DNA from: an uncultured Pelagibacteraceae bacterium
Lineage (GTDB): Bacteria; Pseudomonadota; Alphaproteobacteria; Pelagibacterales; Pelagibacteraceae
Direction of reading: 5' to 3'
Assembly: GCA_902592655.1 (NCBI GenBank)
Contig: CACJFE010000001.1
Span: 62,001 to 126,000, forward strand
Length of the DNA stretch: 64,000 nucleotides
Shown: in pieces, positions 53,544-61,022 of the stretch
How the letters are laid out: every line of letters starts with the position of its first letter
Numbering within the stretch: position 1 is the first letter of the stretch
Translations under genes and position numbers: made by a program
Notes under the pieces: generated by a model
Told to the model about the DNA's origin: nothing
What the model saw: only the letters and a program-made list of their open reading frames with translations
The model's database searches: none

Positions 53544-54049
53544 CGGTATACAGAGACTAATTCATTATTACCAGCTGCTACGCAAGGCGATTTTACGCAA
53601 GTCCCAACTACCCATTCAGAGCCTGCTTCTGTCTCAAAGTTATTTGAAGAAACAAAAATTATACCTTTATCTGTAGATTGACCTGCTTTACCTTCGGCTT
53701 GAATTCTAGGATCCTGAGAAGTTTGTATTAATGGTGTATTAATTGAATATGGATTTTTTAAATCAATATTAGTTAAAACGTAACTTACAATTTTTTCTGA
53801 AGTCCAAACAGAATTACACCTCTCACCCCAAGATGTTAAACCCTCTTCATTTGAACTGCACCTATTTACCTCACCATTTATGAAATCGACTACAGACTTG
53901 TGATTTGATTTTATATCATTTGCTTTTTGTAAAACTTCTGATCTAGTTGAAGCTGTCCATAATAACATTACAACAACATATGTAATAGAGCTTAATACTA
54001 AAATTTCTAATGGTCCAAAATTTTTTAATTTCCTATTTATATCTATCAT
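53540..54049 (-). CDS. Membrane-anchored hypothetical protein with pilin-like layout
   Basis: A 169-residue protein of unknown function. One N-terminal membrane helix (FGPLEILVLSSITYVVVMLL) with a Glu near its start, running into a helical segment, then a soluble part with four cysteines. The last two are in GTCVKSPCVAAGN close to the C-terminus. This layout is like type IV pilins or pseudopilins, but the classic cleavage motif is not clean and no pilus gene is near. Its tail overlaps iolE by 4 bases. It overlaps the dehydrogenase gene upstream by 4 bases. Confidence 0.65.
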   Translation of the reverse strand: MIDINRKLKNFGPLEILVLSSITYVVVMLLWTASTRSEVLQKANDIKSNHKSVVDFINGEVNRCSSNEEGLTSWGERCNSVWTSEKIVSYVLTNIDLKNPYSINTPLIQTSQDPRIQAEGKAGQSTDKGIIFVSSNNFETEAGSEWVVGTCVKSPCVAAGNNELVSVYR

Positions 54050-55002
54050 AATTTTACAATCATAGACTTATCAATCTTATTATTAAAAAAATCAATAATA
54101 TTCTTAGTTGTTTCTAAAGACATTCTAGATTTACATTCATTCGTAAACGTTGCTGAATGCGGACTTAACAAAACTTTTTTATTTGATAGTAAAGGATTAT
54201 TTTTATCCACTGGCTCTTTTTCAAAAACATCTAATCCTGCCCCAAAAATTATTTTCTCTCTTAATGCCTTATCTAAATCTATTTCGTTAATAATCCCACC
54301 TCTTGCAGTATTGATTAAGATTGCCTCTTTTTTCATACTCCTAAGTTTAGAATAATTAATTAAATTTTTAGTTTTTTCATTTAATGGAACATGTAAAGAA
54401 ACATAGTCGCAAATTTTTAACCCATCATCTAGATTTTCAATTTTTTGTCCTCCAAATCTCTCAACAATATATTTATTAACAAAAGGATCAAATACTTTTA
54501 CCTTCATTTCAAATCCTTTACATCTTTTGATTAAACTTTGTCCTATCCTTCCAAAACCAACAATTAAAATTTCTTTGTTAAAAAGCTCTAAAGTTGAAAT
54601 GGAAGATGCGTTTTTCTTAAAATTTCCAATTCTAACCTCCTGGTCGTATTGGTTAATACTTTTAGAAATGGAAAGCATCATGTAAATTACATGCTCTGCC
54701 ACAGCTACTGCATTAGCAGTAGCAGTTATTAATAAAGTTATATTGTTTTTTTTAATAAAATCTAAATCGATATTGTCATATCCCACACCGTGTCTTGATA
54801 TAACTTTTAGATTTTTACAATTTGATAAAATTTTTTCATTTAATTTTGAAACTCTTAGCGTACAAGCATCAAAGTTAGGAAGAACTTTTAATAAGTTATC
54901 TTCTGAAGAATCTTCGATTATTTCAAATTCAAAGTCAGGATTATTTTTTAATAAATTAATTCCGTCTTGGTGAATTTTTTCTATAATTGCTACTTTATGC
55001 AT
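54046..55002 (-). CDS. D-2-hydroxyacid dehydrogenase
   Basis: A 318-residue NAD-dependent enzyme of the D-2-hydroxyacid dehydrogenase family. Seen: LKVISRHGVGYDNIDLDFIK, the dinucleotide site ILIVGFGRIGQSLIKR, ILINTARGGIINEIDLDKAL (catalytic Arg) and LSPHSATFTNEC (catalytic His). It could reduce or oxidise a 2-hydroxyacid such as phosphoglycerate, glycerate or a sugar-acid product. No ACT domain, so it is not a full-length SerA. The ATG at 55002 abuts the left repeat of the integrated element. Confidence 0.88.
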   Translation of the reverse strand: MHKVAIIEKIHQDGINLLKNNPDFEFEIIEDSSEDNLLKVLPNFDACTLRVSKLNEKILSNCKNLKVISRHGVGYDNIDLDFIKKNNITLLITATANAVAVAEHVIYMMLSISKSINQYDQEVRIGNFKKNASSISTLELFNKEILIVGFGRIGQSLIKRCKGFEMKVKVFDPFVNKYIVERFGGQKIENLDDGLKICDYVSLHVPLNEKTKNLINYSKLRSMKKEAILINTARGGIINEIDLDKALREKIIFGAGLDVFEKEPVDKNNPLLSNKKVLLSPHSATFTNECKSRMSLETTKNIIDFFNNKIDKSMIVKL

Positions 55003-55006
55003 TTTT

Positions 55007-55035
55007 TTTGGCGGTCCCAAGGGGAATCGAACCCC
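55007..55035. repeat. Distal attachment site: direct repeat of tRNA-Glu 3' end
   Basis: A perfect 29-base copy of 59180-59208. It corresponds to the T arm, acceptor strand, discriminator and CCA of tRNA-Glu plus three bases, read on the minus strand. No tRNA body follows it: after CGAACCCC the sequence diverges at once. It marks the far end of an element integrated in tRNA-Glu. Confidence 0.93.
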
Positions 55036-55114
55036 GTTTCGGTGATCGTGACCTTAGGTCCGTAAGTCATACATACCAACACTTTTTGATTCTTTCAATC
55101 GCTAACAATCAACA

Positions 55115-55133
55115 GTGGACGCAGTGCGGACAC
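55115..55133. repeat. Candidate integrase arm sites, left end
   Basis: TGGACGC at 55116-55122 and CGGACAC at 55127-55133 start 11 bases apart, one helical turn, just inside the left repeat. The same heptamer occurs at the right end of the element. The integrase carries an arm-binding N-terminal domain that would need such sites. Confidence 0.6.
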
Positions 55134-55149
55134 AGAAAGGTATAGAAAA

Positions 55150-56136
55150 ATGGCGAACATAAGAAAGCGGAGAGGTAAATGGACTGTCTCTATAAGGAAG
55201 TCTAATTACCCGCCCGTATATAAAACTTTTTTAGATAAACCTACTGCAAGAAAGTGGGCTAGAAAAGTTGAGAGCGATATGGATAGAAATCAATTTGAGG
55301 ACTATTCAGACGCAAGTAAGACTTTGCTAACGCAGTTATTGCAAAGATACAAAGAGGAAATGACTGTAAAAAAGAAAGGTGCTCGGTCAGAAACATACAG
55401 ACTGAATTGGTTAATGAGACACAAAATCTCAAAAATCAATTTAATGAGACTTCAATCTAAGCATATCTATGCTTTAAAGTCGGAGTTAACCGAGCGAAAT
55501 CTTAAACCGCAAACTGTTAAACATTATATTCATTTGTTGTCAGTTGTATGGAACACTGCAAAAAAGGTATGGGGTATTCATTTACCCGCTCAATCCCCTT
55601 TTGAGTTAGTTGTTCTAGACAAAGTTAATAATACTAGAGATAGAGTATTGGACTCCAAAGAATATAGTAAGTTATTAGAGGTTGCTGATAGGTCCAAATA
55701 TAATTTTATGAAAGACTTATTACAATTCCTTTATGTTACAGGTGGTCGTTGGAGTGAAGTTATTAATCTAAAAAGATGTAATGTTCAGTTCAATGAAAGA
55801 CTTGCTACATTTGTTGATACAAAAAATGGTGAGGACCGAACAATCCCGCTAAGCAATGAGTGTATTAAGATACTTAAAAGATATCCATTTGGAGATACTT
55901 TCTTTCCAATTAAGTATAGAGACTATTATGATGAGTTCAGACGAATTTGTAAGGTTGCTGAATTAGCAAACTTTACAACGCATGACCTAAGAAGTTGTGC
56001 AATAGTTAATATGCTTAAAAGCGGTATGAATATCGCTGAGGTTAGAGTGATAAGCGGACATAAATCTTTATCACAGTTCCAAAGATATGCTCGAATAAAA
56101 CCGAGTGACTTACTAGATAAAATAAACCAAGTCTAA
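55150..56136 (+). CDS. int: Phage-type tyrosine integrase of the tRNA-Glu element
   Basis: A 328-residue recombinase. Residues 1-45 (KRRGKWTVSIRKSNYPPVYK, then KPTARKWARKVESDM) are a typical arm-DNA-binding domain. The central part is the core-binding SAM-like domain. Catalytic residues are Arg200 (TGGRWSEVINL), Lys225 (DTKNGEDRTIPL), His278 and Arg281 (THDLRSCAI), His304 (SGHKS) and nucleophile Tyr313 (QFQRYARI). All are present, so it should be active. It is transcribed away from the left attachment site and preceded by AAAGG nine bases before ATG. Confidence 0.95.
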   Translation: MANIRKRRGKWTVSIRKSNYPPVYKTFLDKPTARKWARKVESDMDRNQFEDYSDASKTLLTQLLQRYKEEMTVKKKGARSETYRLNWLMRHKISKINLMRLQSKHIYALKSELTERNLKPQTVKHYIHLLSVVWNTAKKVWGIHLPAQSPFELVVLDKVNNTRDRVLDSKEYSKLLEVADRSKYNFMKDLLQFLYVTGGRWSEVINLKRCNVQFNERLATFVDTKNGEDRTIPLSNECIKILKRYPFGDTFFPIKYRDYYDEFRRICKVAELANFTTHDLRSCAIVNMLKSGMNIAEVRVISGHKSLSQFQRYARIKPSDLLDKINQV

Positions 56137-56143
56137 AAATTAT

Positions 56144-56174
56144 AAGGCGGTCCTATGCAAATTAGGACTGCCTT
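56144..56174. terminator. Inverted repeat after the integrase gene
   Basis: Two 12-base arms (AAGGCGGTCCTA and TAGGACTGCCTT) pair with one G-T, around a 7-base loop. It lies 7 bases after the integrase stop. There is no T-run after it on the plus strand; on the minus strand ATAATTTTT follows. It may end or insulate transcription. Its GGCGGTCC core is the same eight bases as in the attachment repeat. Confidence 0.5.
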
Positions 56175-56354
56175 AAAATCCTACACCAATAAAATCAATG
56201 TTCATTTCAAGGTAACAAACCTCTCCTACAAATTAAGGCATACCAAAATTGCGTTAAATTATTTTGAACAAATAAAATATATTCTTACATGGATAGATTT
56301 AGAATAGGTGTTACATTATTAGGTGAGCACTTTAAAATTACAAAAATTATTTCT

Positions 56355-56383
56355 TATAATTTTCATACACTATTTTATAGTGT
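56355..56383 (+). promoter_or_regulatory. Candidate promoter with operator dyad for the replication operon
   Basis: TATAAT at 56355-56360 is followed at 56367-56383 by the perfect dyad ACACTAT-TTT-ATAGTGT, which would overlap the transcription start. A repressor bound there would block the promoter. The -35 region is weak. No repressor gene is recognised in the element. Confidence 0.45.
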
Positions 56384-56439
56384 GTTCCCTACTGCTTTCC
56401 CCTGTCTAAATCTTGATCCATACAAATATTAACAAGGGA

Positions 56440-56465
56440 CTCTCCGCATTGAAAAATGCGGGGAG
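56440..56465 (+). promoter_or_regulatory. GAAA-tetraloop hairpin in the leader of the element operon
   Basis: An 11-base stem with one wobble pair (CTCTCCGCATT and AATGCGGGGAG) is closed by a GAAA tetraloop, 19 bases before the first small gene. There is no T-run, so it is not a simple terminator. It could protect the mRNA, bind a protein, or control translation of the first gene. Confidence 0.55.
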
Positions 56466-56484
56466 CAACAAATTGGAGCTATTG

Positions 56485-56667
56485 ATGACAGTAAAACAAT
56501 TAAGACTAAAACTATTAAACTCATTGAAAGGTTATGCCAAAAGACGATTAGAGACTTGCTCTAGCAAGGTATCTATTTGGAAAAATGAAATGGCTACCGC
56601 TTTAGATGAAGTAGAAAAATACGATAATCAAATAAAGGAGTTACAAAATGAAAAAGAAGATTTTTAA
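56485..56667 (+). CDS. Small basic coiled-coil protein of the element
   Basis: A 60-residue protein, unknown family. It is basic and helical at the start (TVKQLRLKLLNSLKGYAKRR) and ends in a charged heptad-like helix (ALDEVEKYDNQIKELQNEKE). I chose the ATG at 56485 because GGAG stands six bases before it; a TTG at 56413 would run through the hairpin. It overlaps the next gene by 20 bases. It could be a DNA-binding or regulatory protein, but no known fold is recognised. Confidence 0.6.
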   Translation: MTVKQLRLKLLNSLKGYAKRRLETCSSKVSIWKNEMATALDEVEKYDNQIKELQNEKEDF

Positions 56668-56938
56668 TTATGCTACTAGAGAATTTGAAAATCTAAATGC
56701 TGAGGACGATATTCAAGAAATGAAAGAGAAAGAGTTTAAAACACTTAAACCTAATGCAGTCCCACCTAAAACAGAAACATTTAAAAAAACAGTCATAACC
56801 CCATCAGGTGATATTTTTGATGCGATATATGACGAGATGAATATTTTTGAGAAAGGTCATTACAATCAAAGACACAAAAAACAATATGGAGTTACCTATG
56901 TCGAAGCAAGAAATAAAAGACTTAAAAAAAATAATTAA
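56648..56938 (+). CDS. Small hypothetical protein of the element
   Basis: A 96-residue charged protein with no recognised domain and no membrane segment. Features: an acidic/basic start (NLNAEDDIQEMKEKEFK), a proline segment (LKPNAVPPKTETFKK), and a basic end (GHYNQRHKKQYGVTYVEARN). It is preceded by a textbook AAAGGAG seven bases before the ATG. It overlaps the gene before by 20 bases and the gene after by 41. Confidence 0.62.
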   Translation: MKKKIFNYATREFENLNAEDDIQEMKEKEFKTLKPNAVPPKTETFKKTVITPSGDIFDAIYDEMNIFEKGHYNQRHKKQYGVTYVEARNKRLKKNN

Positions 56939-57140
56939 AATACAAGAAAAAATTATTGCTGCTAACAAAGATGAAATTAAATATTACAAACATATAAATC
57001 ATTATTTAATGCATGAGTGTTTTGATATTTGGGAAAAAAATTGGAGCACTAAAGTTCACAATGTAATGTTGAAAACCTACGCAGACAATTTATGGAAGTC
57101 TTGGAAGATTTGGAAAGCGGGGGAAAATGTTTCAGAATAA
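56898..57140 (+). CDS. Small helical protein before the Prim-Pol gene
   Basis: An 80-residue protein, unknown family. Helical, lysine-rich start (SKQEIKDLKKIIKIQEKIIA), then a tryptophan-rich end (HECFDIWEKNWSTKV, NLWKSWKIWKAGE). I chose the ATG at 56898 because GGAG precedes it by seven bases; a start at 56847 in the same frame would lie deeper in the previous gene. Its last 14 bases overlap the Prim-Pol gene, so the two are coupled; it could be a partner of the primase. Confidence 0.6.
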   Translation: MSKQEIKDLKKIIKIQEKIIAANKDEIKYYKHINHYLMHECFDIWEKNWSTKVHNVMLKTYADNLWKSWKIWKAGENVSE

Positions 57141-58560
57141 TACTCTAGATAGCCCAAAGAGGTGGTTAGACGCGGGTTATAGAGTCTTTCCATGCCAAGA
57201 GAAGAAACCTCTCGTAGAATGGAAAACCGAAAATAAAAAAATTTTTTATGATGGCAATGCAGTTGGACTGTACTTGCAAGGTGTTACCGACTTTGATGTC
57301 GATAACCCTACTGCACATAATTTTATAAAAGAATATTTAAAACCATGCGGAGCGGTATATGGCAGACATAGTAATCCCAATTCACATTACCTGTTTAAAG
57401 GTGACTATGAATTCAAACAATATGTATTTCCCAAATCTCTAGAAAATCATGTCAAAGAATTTGCACATGGATTGACTATTGGAGAAATAAGAAATGGAGA
57501 GCACTACTCTATTGTCCCTAATTCCAAAATTGACGGAGAGAAAGTTGAGTGGAGTAAGTTCATAGATATAAATGAATATGACGGGGACCTAGTGAGAGAC
57601 ATAGGGTTAATTATGTTCTCTACTGCTATGGCAATCCTATACCCGCAAAAAGGACAAAGAGATAATTTCTGTACTGCTATGGCGGGAGCTCTCGCTAAGA
57701 ATACAGATTGGGACGGGTCCTACATAGACTCAGTTGTTTTTAATATTGCAAAGTATGCACTCAATAAAGATGAAAACTATATGAAGAAAGGCGGTAAAGG
57801 GACCAATGCAAGAAATGCTATCAAAGGTAAAAAGAAAGTTTTAGGTATGCCTACACTTGCAGAAATATTAAATGTTCCTCTCAAAGATATTACAATCCTA
57901 TTCAGTTGGGTTGGAGTAAAATATGAGGGTGAAATTTTTAGTAATTTAAAAATATATAATACAGTTCCCAAATATTATGAAATGCAAGTTGAGGGCAATG
58001 TAATACGAATAATGAATACAAAAGATTTGATGTCGTATGCTGCCGTTCAGGTAATAATAGAAGAACAATTATTAAAAACTGCTCCAATGATAACTCCAAA
58101 ACAATGGAGAGAGATAAGACAGGGACTGTATGACAATGCAAAGATTGTTGAAGTTCCTATTGAGCAATCCTTTACAGGAATTATACAACACCACTTTATA
58201 AATTTTGTTACAAGGCATGAGTCTAATATGAAAGAGAATTTATTCGATTATCAATTACACATGACTTGGCATGATCGAGACAATAAAAGATATGTATTCC
58301 GGTTAGAGGGATTTAGAGACGATCTAATGAGACATAGGATTAGTTTTGAGCAAAGGCAGATGACTGCAATGCTGACTGATGTATTCAGGGCAAAACCCAT
58401 CAAAATTTATTCTAAGAGAAAAGAGGTAAGATGTTGGGAGTGTCCCGTTGAATTAGTCGAGAAATACCAAAACAGTGATTGGGAGACTTACAATGAAGTT
58501 AGAAAAAAAAGATTTGAGGAGAGTATGAAGACTGCACCAAATTTACATAAAAATTTCTAG
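57127..58560 (+). CDS. Prim-Pol (AEP superfamily) replication protein without helicase
   Basis: A 477-residue protein. Residues about 8-170 match the bifunctional primase-polymerase domain: RWLDAGYRVFPCQEKKPLVEW, metal aspartates D57 and D59 in TDFDVDNPT, His87 in the SNPNSHYLF loop, and Glu120 in GEIRNGEHYSIVPNS. Residues about 174-215 (KGQRDNFCTAMAGALAKN) resemble the helical region that follows the Prim-Pol domain in many mobile-element primases. The rest, 240-477, is unrecognised. No Walker A motif, so no helicase. It probably primes or copies element DNA. GGCGGGGG precedes the ATG. Confidence 0.85.
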   Translation: MFQNNTLDSPKRWLDAGYRVFPCQEKKPLVEWKTENKKIFYDGNAVGLYLQGVTDFDVDNPTAHNFIKEYLKPCGAVYGRHSNPNSHYLFKGDYEFKQYVFPKSLENHVKEFAHGLTIGEIRNGEHYSIVPNSKIDGEKVEWSKFIDINEYDGDLVRDIGLIMFSTAMAILYPQKGQRDNFCTAMAGALAKNTDWDGSYIDSVVFNIAKYALNKDENYMKKGGKGTNARNAIKGKKKVLGMPTLAEILNVPLKDITILFSWVGVKYEGEIFSNLKIYNTVPKYYEMQVEGNVIRIMNTKDLMSYAAVQVIIEEQLLKTAPMITPKQWREIRQGLYDNAKIVEVPIEQSFTGIIQHHFINFVTRHESNMKENLFDYQLHMTWHDRDNKRYVFRLEGFRDDLMRHRISFEQRQMTAMLTDVFRAKPIKIYSKRKEVRCWECPVELVEKYQNSDWETYNEVRKKRFEESMKTAPNLHKNF

Positions 58561-58779
58561 CCCCTATATATACATATTTATATACAGACAGACGGACACT
58601 ACAAAAATACTTACCGATTAGATGTATTTTTATATTTATATATATGGCGTAAAATGAATCTTTTTCATAAAGTTTTTGCGGTGGCTCAATGTTACCTCTA
58701 ATACAGTTAAATTGTTGGCTTTAGTTGGCTTGAAAAAATAAAAAGTGTTGATTTGATTCAAATTTTTAAAAAATTTTTT

Positions 58780-58921
58780 GTGTCGGTAAAATATTTTTCG
58801 AGGTGACATTTCCGTTTTCCATGGTCCATTGACCCTGAATCCCGAAACATATAGGGTAACTAAATCATTAATAGCAAGTCCTTAGTGTCGGTTAGGACTC
58901 CCATATAGTTTTGATCGACAC
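58780..58921. repeat. GTGTCGGT repeats, iteron-like
   Basis: GTGTCGGT occurs at 58780-58787 and 58885-58892, and its inverted form CGACAC at 58916-58921 (AGTGTCG and CGACACT form a 7-base dyad from 58884 to 58922). Such spaced repeats can bind an initiator. Confidence 0.4.
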
Positions 58922-59031
58922 TGACAATCTCAATCCTTGTACATACATAGACATAATCTAAAGTGTAATTTTAAAAATTGGACTCCCCCACTTTGCATTA
59001 ATTGCATTTTCTAAAACTGATAGGGGTCCCA

Positions 59032-59062
59032 CCGAGGACGAGGGCGGAGCCCGAGTCCGAGG
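59032..59062. repeat. GC-rich fold-back with tandem G-A interruptions
   Basis: The arms pair as CC, GGAC and GGGC with GCCC, GTCC and GG, around a GGA loop. Between each paired block both arms have the dinucleotide GA, so tandem G-A pairs would form at regular spacing. In single-stranded DNA or RNA this is a stable rod. It is one of the few GC-rich stretches in the window. Possible origin, packaging or transcription-stop signal. Confidence 0.6.
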
Positions 59063-59083
59063 TTCGTGTTCCGTGACTCAGAA

Positions 59084-59115
59084 CGGACACACTACGGACA
59101 CAGTACGGTGGACAC
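59084..59115. repeat. Candidate integrase arm sites, right end
   Basis: CGGACAC at 59084-59090 and 59095-59101 and TGGACAC at 59109-59115, spaced 11 and 14 bases. The first two have the same 11-base step as the pair at the left end. They lie 65-95 bases from the right attachment repeat. Confidence 0.6.
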
Positions 59116-59179
59116 AATGAATCCACCTGTGCTAAGATTCATTTAGAAAGATGAGCAAAGTAGATTGGTTAATGATTAG

Positions 59180-59208
59180 TTTGGCGGTCCCAAGGGGAAT
59201 CGAACCCC
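59180..59208. repeat. Attachment repeat inside the intact tRNA-Glu gene
   Basis: Right copy of the 29-base repeat. It spans the tRNA-Glu 3' half of the T arm to CCA plus two bases beyond. Integration here keeps the tRNA complete. Confidence 0.93.
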
Positions 59209-59256
59209 TCTTTGTTGGATGAAAACCAACTGTCCTAACCGATAGACGATGGGACC
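59182..59256 (-). tRNA. tRNA-Glu (UUC), integration target
   Basis: A 75-base cloverleaf with encoded CCA. Acceptor GGTCCCA/TGGGACC, discriminator G, anticodon stem GTTGG/CCAAC around a loop with TTC at 34-36, T arm GAGGG-TTCGATT-CCCCT region. Its 5' 22 bases overlap the end of recJ. Its 3' end is the attachment site of the element to the left. Confidence 0.96.
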
Positions 59257-61022
59257 ATATTTTTGAGTGTCTTATTAACAGAAATATCATCGATAATAAA
59301 CTCCACATTTGATTGCCCCTGCCACTCATTTAAGGATAATTTACCAGCAATATTAAATAATTTATTATCTTTTTTAAGTAAATGAGCTCCTATTTCGTTT
59401 TCGACGCAGTTAAATGCTATTGATTTTACTGTTGATCCGTCCATTCCAACTAAAATTGCTTTTATATGTTTATTCTTTATAATTTTACTATTAATAGATT
59501 TCATATTTTCTATAACAAACTTTGGCTCTGGATTGCCTGAACCAAAAGGTGCTAGCACATTAACTTTGTTGTAAAATTCAAGATTTAAGGCAGTTGGTGC
59601 TATAATACTGTCTAAATATAAAGGTTTAATATTAGAGATATTATTATTTACTTTTTCAAATTTTTTAAAAATAAACTTTCTAAATTTATCAAAATTTTCA
59701 ATTTTTATTGTAAATCCTCCGGCCATCTTATGACCACCGCCTTTAACTAATATATTTTCCTGAACAGCAGATATAATTACTGAACCAATATCAAAGCCTA
59801 CAATAGATCTTGCTGAAGCTTTTCCGATACCATTTTCATCTACTGAAATAATAATAACAGGTTTGTTTAGTTTGTCTTTAATTCTTGATGCGACTATTCC
59901 AATTACACCTTCGTGCCAATTTTTTCCATTAATGATTATTAAAGAGTCATTAATTTTATTTCCTAGTTCTATTAAGATTTTATCAAGAACTTCTTTTTCT
60001 AAAATTTGTCTTTCGTTATTAAATTTATCTAACTCAGATGCTATCCTGAATACATCCTTGGGATTTTTATTAATTAGTAAATTTGCTCCGTGAGAAGATT
60101 TTCCAACTCTTCCACCAGCATTAATCCTTGGCCCTAGTAAATATCCGATATGATAAACATTAGGTCGGCTTTGAATATCGCAAATGTCAAATAAAGTTTT
60201 TAAACCTAAATTTTTTTTTGATCGTAAAATTTTTAATCCCTGAAAGACAATTGCTCTATTTAAACCAATCAAAGGGACAACATCACAAACAGTGCCTAAT
60301 GTAACTAGATCTAAATATTCAAGCAGATTTGGCTCTGTTATTCGACTCTGAATAAACCAATTTATTGATCTTAATTCTTTGTTTAAAGAAATTAAAAACA
60401 TAAATGTCACGCCAGCAGCGCAGAGATATTTAAGATCAGATGTATCATCTATTCTATTTGGATTAACTACAGAATAAGCTTTAGGTAATTTAATTTCTGA
60501 TTGATGATGATCAAGAACTATTACATCAATTTTATTTCTAAAAGCATATTCAATTGCCTCAAAAGAAAGTGTTCCACAATCAACAGTAAAAATCAATTTT
60601 ACTCCATTATCTATCAACTTTTTAAAAGACTCTGTAGACGGGCCGTATCCCTCTTTTTTTCTATCAGGTATATAAATTTCGCAAGGCACTCTTAGTTTAT
60701 TAAAAAAATTGGTAAGCAATGCTGTTGCAGAGGCTCCATCAACATCATAATCACCAAAAATACCGATCTTTTCTTTCTTATCTATTGCATTTAGAGTTCT
60801 TTTTGCAGATTTTTGCATATCTTTGATTATTTCAGGATTTGGGAGAAAGTTTTTTATTGATGGTGAAAGGAAAGCCTGAACATCTTCCTTCTTAATCTTT
60901 CTTATGGATAAAAGTTTTGATGTGATTTCATCTAATGAATAATTTTCTTTATAGAATATTATATCTTGTTCGTCGTATTTTTTAAAAATCCAGTTTTTGT
61001 TGCTTACTGAATTTGATTTCAT
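59235..61022 (-). CDS. recJ: Single-stranded-DNA exonuclease RecJ
   Basis: RecJ, 595 residues, a 5'-3' ssDNA exonuclease in recombination and mismatch repair. DHH-family motifs: GIFGDYDVDGASATALL, FTVDCGTLSFEAIEY, VIVLDHHQSEIKLPKAY, NAGGRVGKSSHGANLL and DHHA1-type KGGGHKMAGGFTI. The C-terminal OB domain ends in VEFIIDDISVNKTLKNMVPS. The last seven codons and the stop lie within the 5' part of tRNA-Glu. Its ATG overlaps the glpX stop by 4 bases. Confidence 0.95.
   Translation of the reverse strand: MKSNSVSNKNWIFKKYDEQDIIFYKENYSLDEITSKLLSIRKIKKEDVQAFLSPSIKNFLPNPEIIKDMQKSAKRTLNAIDKKEKIGIFGDYDVDGASATALLTNFFNKLRVPCEIYIPDRKKEGYGPSTESFKKLIDNGVKLIFTVDCGTLSFEAIEYAFRNKIDVIVLDHHQSEIKLPKAYSVVNPNRIDDTSDLKYLCAAGVTFMFLISLNKELRSINWFIQSRITEPNLLEYLDLVTLGTVCDVVPLIGLNRAIVFQGLKILRSKKNLGLKTLFDICDIQSRPNVYHIGYLLGPRINAGGRVGKSSHGANLLINKNPKDVFRIASELDKFNNERQILEKEVLDKILIELGNKINDSLIIINGKNWHEGVIGIVASRIKDKLNKPVIIISVDENGIGKASARSIVGFDIGSVIISAVQENILVKGGGHKMAGGFTIKIENFDKFRKFIFKKFEKVNNNISNIKPLYLDSIIAPTALNLEFYNKVNVLAPFGSGNPEPKFVIENMKSINSKIIKNKHIKAILVGMDGSTVKSIAFNCVENEIGAHLLKKDNKLFNIAGKLSLNEWQGQSNVEFIIDDISVNKTLKNMVPSSIG

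Follow-up and report, generated by a model that had tools for sequence, protein, structure and literature searches.

A small, probably phage-satellite-like element at the tRNA-Glu gene of an uncultured Pelagibacteraceae bacterium and integrase-less cassettes with similar ends at the same site

The window analysed in the current study, a stretch of 64,000 nucleotides from the genome of an uncultured Pelagibacteraceae bacterium, contains at positions 55007-59208 a small element precisely inserted at a tRNA-Glu gene, which we consider likely to be an integrated phage-satellite-like element. It carries a tyrosine integrase and a Prim-Pol-type primase between two copies of the 3' end of the tRNA gene, and the best reading is that it works like a minimal phage satellite. 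This reading is favored because related elements with integrase and primase genes partly encode a small terminase and because a viral contig of the same family, L205, has terminal repeats. Besides, integrase-less cassettes occupy the same site in other genomes of the genus, and it is quite possible, if short of probable, that SAR11 bacteria have an integron-like mode of gene capture combining a tRNA docking site, satellite-borne integrases, paired arm sites spaced by 11 bp and integrase-less cassettes; in this proposal the cassettes, one class of which often has a promoter-like leader, stand in tandem after tRNA-Glu and are shared between distant strains.

The element is bracketed by a direct repeat (55007-55035 and 59180-59208) that is perfect over 29 nt and 89% identical over 38 nt, and the chance of a 29-mer repeat within 8.5 kb is negligible by arithmetic. 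The repeat corresponds to the 3' end of tRNA-Glu(ttc), encoded at 59182-59256 on the minus strand, so that both the sequence and the tRNA call confirmed the original prediction that 29 nt of the tRNA-Glu 3' end recur without mismatch on either side of the element. The contents had been described as an integrase, three small genes, a Prim-Pol protein and nothing else, which is accurate for the better open reading frames (ORFs) and has to be extended by a weak ORF of 50 amino acids (aa) and by a 619-bp end with arm-like repeats. The features are as follows:

54046-55002, minus strand: D-2-hydroxyacid dehydrogenase gene, chromosomal, on the far side of the empty site
55007-55035, no strand: distal repeat copy of the tRNA-Glu 3' end, the attachment site, lying 4 bp off the dehydrogenase start codon
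55036-55149, no strand: element end with a pair of arm-like sites spaced by 11 bp at about 55117-55134 (motif on the minus strand)
55150-56136, plus strand: tyrosine integrase, 328 aa (PF00589, 9.5e-24)
56155-56307, plus strand: 50-aa ORF, a weak candidate
56485-56667, plus strand: 60-aa ORF (84 aa if from the TTG at 56413), function unassigned
56648-56938, plus strand: 96-aa ORF, function unassigned
56889-57140, plus strand: 83-aa ORF (97 aa if from the TTG at 56847)
57127-58560, plus strand: Prim-Pol-type primase, 477 aa, assigned by homology and motifs
58561-59179, no strand: element end without a recognised gene, 619 bp
59180-59208, no strand: proximal repeat copy, inside the tRNA-Glu 3' end and 2 nt past it
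59182-59256, minus strand: tRNA-Glu(ttc), the target gene
59235-61022, minus strand: recJ-like gene, chromosomal flank

The 619-bp end holds direct integrase-arm-like repeats in 11-bp steps at about 59074-59119, whose motif reads on the minus strand. It also includes a foldable, GC-rich stretch (z -2.57, a value matched by 2 of 200 shuffles). The GC content of 1-kb intervals was somewhat higher wholly inside the element (0.30-0.36) than in the flanks (0.26-0.32), and a promoter scan of the element stayed at chance level (18 versus 16.7).

The insertion is resolved by comparison with other genomes of the genus. The tRNA-Glu/recJ stretch was matched in 153 of 169 genomes, the element-side regions were compared, and 119 loci, including that of the window, were classed: 80 were empty, 27 (the window included) had one or more further repeats, 11 were filled without a recognised repeat, and one had no boundary gene, the contig ending there. 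Left out of the 119 were G298:C21 and G205:C58, whose contigs end near the tRNA, G198:C29, which is a contig-end fragment, G206 (a match without the tRNA), L064 (G084:C18; no tRNA), and genomes with short matches only. The start of the dehydrogenase gene lies 5-17 bases past the tRNA in 54 of the 80 empty loci, at base 7 in 29 of these 54, which is the same spacing as that beyond the distal repeat of the window, while an aldehyde dehydrogenase follows the tRNA at 7-55 bases in 26 of the 80. The empty site anticipated in close strains was also found in three of the four closest relatives (G293, G236 and G286, loci L057-L059, with 88% flank identity), the fourth, G175, having an 841-bp cassette at tRNA-Glu. 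Empty sites with matching dehydrogenase spacing demonstrate that the window element is a precise insertion into tRNA-Glu, and the tRNA-Glu site is an insertion hotspot across the genus. No window-like integrase was found at the other 118 loci, bar one broken fragment, and an integrase match was obtained in 4 of the 169 genomes, its own included; these genomes are 51-98% complete, and its absence elsewhere is therefore not certain. Additionally, four loci (L131, L132, L139, and L143) have insertions of about 0.9 kb at the tRNA-Glu boundary without a recognised repeat, which were probably inherited vertically, since the closest pairs are no more alike than their host flanks (87-88%).

Integrase residues R200, K225, H278, and Y313 are invariant across nine aligned integrases, the window's included. 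The 83-aa ORF is related to one of 103 aa that follows the integrase in L195, where the nearest integrase relative is encoded (phmmer 1.9e-7). The Prim-Pol identity proposed for the 477-aa protein was borne out, as its N-terminal half aligns with the primase of Microbacterium phage Hendrix (tblastn 2e-5), itself a PF09250 protein (1e-19), and as the Prim-Pol motifs DxD, SHY, and E..(V/I)P.S align too. The assignment rests on homology and motifs because the PF09250 profile gave no match, either in a Pfam scan of the window primase or in a search of its own genome. No helicase domain was found in the protein, and a single-sequence AlphaFold model of it (pLDDT 33) was dropped.

Related integrases (E<=1e-15) occur in 12 of 397 genomes of the family, its own included. 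In six of the other eleven, the integrase stands with several small ORFs and a primase-like gene of 594-689 aa between partial tRNA copies, forming elements of 5.1-6.4 kb:

L192, at tRNA-Met: integrase and primase-like element
L197, at tRNA-Arg: integrase and primase-like element
L199, at tRNA-Met: integrase and primase-like element with a small terminase
L200, at tRNA-Asn (by its repeat): integrase and primase-like element
L202, at tRNA-Ser: integrase and primase-like element with a small terminase
L204, at tRNA-Met: integrase and primase-like element with a small terminase

The terminase of L204 matches Terminase_2 at 8.7e-10, that of L202 matches it at 1.8e-5, just below the Pfam cut-off, and a PHROG terminase small subunit at 1.1e-8, and the L199 protein is homologous to both. 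The L199 protein, the only one of the three searched against phages, found its best match in the terminase small subunit of the cultured pelagiphage HTVC027P (42.9% identity, 3e-22), which suggests a culture-testable helper for this satellite family. Moreover, each of the seven ORFs listed for L204 has a match in the 6170-bp IMG/VR contig L205, which encodes a small terminase and has terminal repeats of 99 bp; these repeats indicate a circular or concatemeric form. The remaining integrase relatives are more varied. L195 has the closest integrase (46% identity), directly behind a tmRNA gene (L195:7103-7413) that is probably its target, and a contig end cuts its far side; L198:4516-9729 combines an integrase with cargo encoding small secreted-looking proteins between tRNA-Met repeats, no primase being found in it, and one of its proteins matches the PADLOC candidate PDC-S57 (4e-25); in L196, L201, and L203 no integrase and primase layout was found between tRNA copies. 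With 4.14 kb between its repeats, compared with 5.0-6.4 kb in seven other elements, the window element is the smallest compared, and in this sense its size was rightly called unusual, yet it is no lone oddity, given these related elements and integrase-less cassettes with like ends.

The family context bears on two other explanations. If the element were a degraded prophage remnant that had kept its integrase and primase, the resemblance of the integrase to phage integrases (473 phage records) and the distant phage relatives of the primase would be expected; its reading frames and conserved integrase residues are intact, however, and six like-sized and like-arranged elements in several tRNA genes form a pattern that decay would not repeat, which makes this explanation very improbable. 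A self-contained integrative element, plasmid-like or carried in vesicles, that spreads by transformation or vesicles and is independent of phages would agree with the fact that no packaging gene was recognised in the window element and no close relative in the viral_contigs collection. It is at odds with the small terminases of three of the six related elements and of L205, since we know of no use of a small terminase outside phage packaging, and we consider it improbable. The prediction that the element needs a phage for packaging or transfer thus appears supported at the family level only, through the small terminases of its relatives, the window element itself having none recognised.

Several observations weigh against the phage-satellite-like reading. 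Among the ORFs of the window element, no small terminase, capsid or regulator gene was recognised, no excised junction was seen, and the element occurs at a single one of the 119 loci. The similarity of its primase to those of the six related elements is remote (best phmmer 1e-4), and it has no AAA domain, which is present in four of five related primases tested. The window element and L199 had no DNA match in 50,697 phage records, and the integrase of L205, the sole viral contig of the family, is only 27% identical to that of the window. The exact pattern of the window right end had no match in viral_contigs, and peptide-pattern scans of that collection revealed no relative of the window primase or integrase. 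The TGnGTC arm pairs are not unique to the window element either, as L199 has them at tRNA-Met despite an integrase of 29% identity, and several other family elements show arm pairs at one end or none. Two groups of candidates were also discarded: three viral contigs with the tRNA-Glu 3' end as attachment sites were ruled out, as they match phage tRNA-Asp genes in tRNA clusters, and a distant primase match in G010 was set aside because its surroundings are a replication region of phage-like character and the bin is 8% contaminated.

The prediction of a mobile, tRNA-targeting unit that encodes integration and priming functions, and in which no gene for packaging is recognised, was upheld by our analysis. 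It is bounded by attachment repeats and brings its own integrase and priming gene, both being broad traits of phage satellites; a packaging-redirecting gene (terS or capsid gene), a further trait that some satellite families such as PICMIs do without, was seen in three of the six related elements, as a small terminase, and not in the window element. As its anatomy and the empty sites show, the element integrase recombined the element with the tRNA-Glu 3' end and left a whole tRNA gene. On infection by a helper, the element would be excised and circularised, copied by its own Prim-Pol with a helicase and polymerase of the host or helper, and packaged as multimers by a tailed pelagiphage. For the window element this would have to proceed without a terminase of its own, as reported for the PICMIs of Vibrionaceae.

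The cassettes at the same site extend these findings. The 26 other repeat-bearing loci hold 36 repeat-bounded segments, with one to four tandem cassettes per locus. No intact integrase was found in 47 segments besides the window's when these were searched with nine integrases and a profile of them. The third segment in G276, L056.3, which is class-B-like, has a stop-broken match of 30 aa to an integrase start (50% identity; E 0.008 with all segments searched) and no other integrase parts. The match is placed close inside the right end of the segment, the position at which the integrase of the window begins. Cassettes with differing cargo have conserved ends, of about 75 nt on the left and about 110 nt on the right. 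Class A cassettes have TGnGTC pairs spaced by 11 bp at both ends, and class B cassettes have GnGATC pairs. The window element has class A pairs at both ends and is the one intact integrase source seen at the tRNA-Glu site. Of 37 ends on each side, the window included, strict TGnGTC-N5-TGnGTC pairs were seen in 18 on the left and 13 on the right, against shuffle expectations of 0.01 and 0.00. The pairs are positioned at fixed distances, 54 nt in 16 left ends (77/88 in the window and L108) and 75-76 nt in 12 right ends (99 in the window). By a lenient score, the 36 cassettes without the window comprise 24 A/A, nine B/B, and three with an unclassed end, and none of the 33 with both ends classed is mixed (Fisher p 2.6e-8, which is overstated as the cassettes are related).

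The class A left-end pattern gave 19 matches in 16 of the 169 genomes, all at or within tRNA-Glu arrays when coordinates were compared by eye, and the reversed-pattern control gave none among the matches listed. With the right-end pattern, 18 matching stretches were obtained in genome_contigs, every one in a record titled Pelagibacteraceae, and none in viral_contigs, where neither the cassette ends nor a looser pattern of the window's core-adjacent end had a match. Of the 24 left ends of class A, 13 share a promoter-like signal at the same position and a 14th has one elsewhere, compared with a mean of 2.9 and at most 7 of 24 in shuffles, and none of nine class B ends has one. As the class A ends are related sequences, this no more than suggests a promoter-like leader in class A. 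No candidate integrase was found for the class B cassettes. Nine cargo proteins were scanned, which included Z1/helicase, glutaminase-ankyrin, trypsin-like, MORN, alginate-lyase-like, and methyltransferase proteins (the last from a segment without a recognised repeat) and three without a match.

Comparison between genomes indicates that the cassettes are exchanged. Two genomes share a cassette of 810 bp at 99.9% identity, while the identity of their recJ-side flanks is 83.6% and that of their dehydrogenase genes 90.8%. In further pairs of cassettes it amounts to 97.0% over 1305 bp (recJ-side flank 75.7%, far-side genes different), 97.1% over 629 bp (80.7%), 95.0% over 1286 bp (76.5%, far-side genes different), 93.9% over 1553 bp (77.6%), and 93.5% over 821 bp (82.1%), while the remaining shared segments are less similar, down to about 67-88%, some being only as similar as their flanks. 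The right end of the window element itself (98 bp, within 55036-55149) has 99% identity to that of a cassette without integrase in G276, a genome with only 73% identity to the window in the tRNA-recJ stretch. Some cassettes appear to have moved recently, because near-identical copies sit in distant genomes.

Such movement could in principle proceed by homologous recombination of the flanks or by recombination between repeats, without any integrase. In keeping with this, the three other genus genomes with an integrase match do not overlap with the 26 that bear cassettes, and SAR11 is described as often exchanging genome parts (PMC7542561). This explanation is nevertheless rather unlikely in our view, as several cassettes of 93-99.9% identity are set between recJ-side flanks of 76-84% and dehydrogenase genes of 73-91%, or next to a different far-side gene, and as the arm pairs of the two ends agree and the ends keep fixed distances. 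Alternatively, the cassettes may be what remains of satellites or islands from which the integrase disappeared once they were inserted, comparable to cis-mobilizable islands, with no evolved cassette system. The broken integrase start of L056.3, placed as in the window, the nearly identical end of another G276 cassette, and L198, with integrase and cargo and no primase, speak for this account; the integrase profile, however, detected nothing in the 47 segments besides the window's, the ends have been kept over about 75 and 110 nt despite different cargo, and near-identical cassettes in distant genomes imply that some moved recently. We regard it as possible, albeit somewhat doubtful, as an explanation of the cassettes. 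Judging by the fragment in L056.3, an integrase was formerly present in one segment or more, and decay explains part of the array.

Integron-like capture would offer a different explanation. The probable recognition sites of the window integrase are the paired TGnGTC arms in 11-bp steps, and since the same pairs bound the element and the class A cassettes, we propose that elements of this kind may move these integrase-less cassettes in trans. L200 and L197 each have an arm motif of their own at both ends, and one motif per integrase group would fit these differences in arm repeats, which does not prove it. Cis-mobilizable islands and integron cassettes likewise have attachment sites but no integrase, and depend for their movement on one encoded elsewhere; the difference is that here the site is a tRNA gene, paired arm repeats stand at the ends, and the candidate integrase is on a satellite-like element. 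SAR11 genomes are streamlined and poor in mobile elements, and the cassette arrays suggest one route of gene gain in them, through one integrase, one short attachment site, and many cassettes. SAR11 is among the most abundant bacteria (PMC7029224).

Known satellites share part of this anatomy. Satellites of the PICI family combine an integrase and primase module with a small terminase; the module is present in the window element and the terminase in its relatives L199, L202, L204, and L205, whereas in the window element itself no small terminase, interference or capsid-size gene was recognised. VEIMEs, attributed to Eppley in 2022, and tycheposons, attributed to Hackl in 2023, are reportedly marine integrative elements, some of them virion-packaged or tRNA-linked, and SAR11 satellites may already be among them. 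The window element, tRNA-linked and with a tyrosine recombinase, resembles tycheposons as these are described in PMC10872708. PICMIs are very small elements with an integrase, a primase, and a few ORFs of no assigned function, without capsid or terminase gene, for which packaging of concatemers is modelled and which are defined by int, alpA, and prim together with integration at fis. The window element is equally small, with integrase and primase and no recognised capsid or terminase gene, but falls outside that definition, since no AlpA-type match was present among the six window ORFs scanned and it lies at tRNA-Glu rather than fis; it also has a Prim-Pol-type instead of a DUF3987/DUF5906 primase and a SAR11-type rather than a Vibrionaceae host (PMC10803314).

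The cassettes, in turn, recall the additive genomic islands of Actinomarinales (PMC7771536) and Methylophilaceae (PMC10872708), where small cassettes are added at a tRNA gene and have direct repeats of part of it, as at tRNA-Glu; conserved cassette ends, paired arm sites, and a linked integrase element are not described in the retrieved passages of these two studies. Previous work on SAR11 reports a prophage in tRNA-Val (PMC7542561), a Pelagibacterales operon for phosphonate with tyrosine recombinases and tRNA genes next to it (PMC12416821), and, in an early genome study, hypervariable regions without integron attC sites, one of which has an integrase gene and one of which is flanked by tRNA genes (PMC2217521). 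Among the literature matches listed, as far as their retrieved text goes, neither cassettes at tRNA-Glu nor phage satellites were found to be described for SAR11.

Some individual segments deserve mention. The class B cassette L038:1362-3269 encodes a Z1-domain helicase that matches the PADLOC Helicase_II model (1e-40), and because of this match the cassettes may carry phage defence. A segment of 1.4 kb, bounded by repeats and without an integrase, follows L199, with a TGTGTC-type pair common to one end only. The array at L041 (G202) contains four cassettes, with class A beside class B, and the 3.5-kb tRNA-Glu segment L125:5791-9044 encodes a glutaminase-ankyrin protein between unclassed ends, its far repeat having five mismatches.

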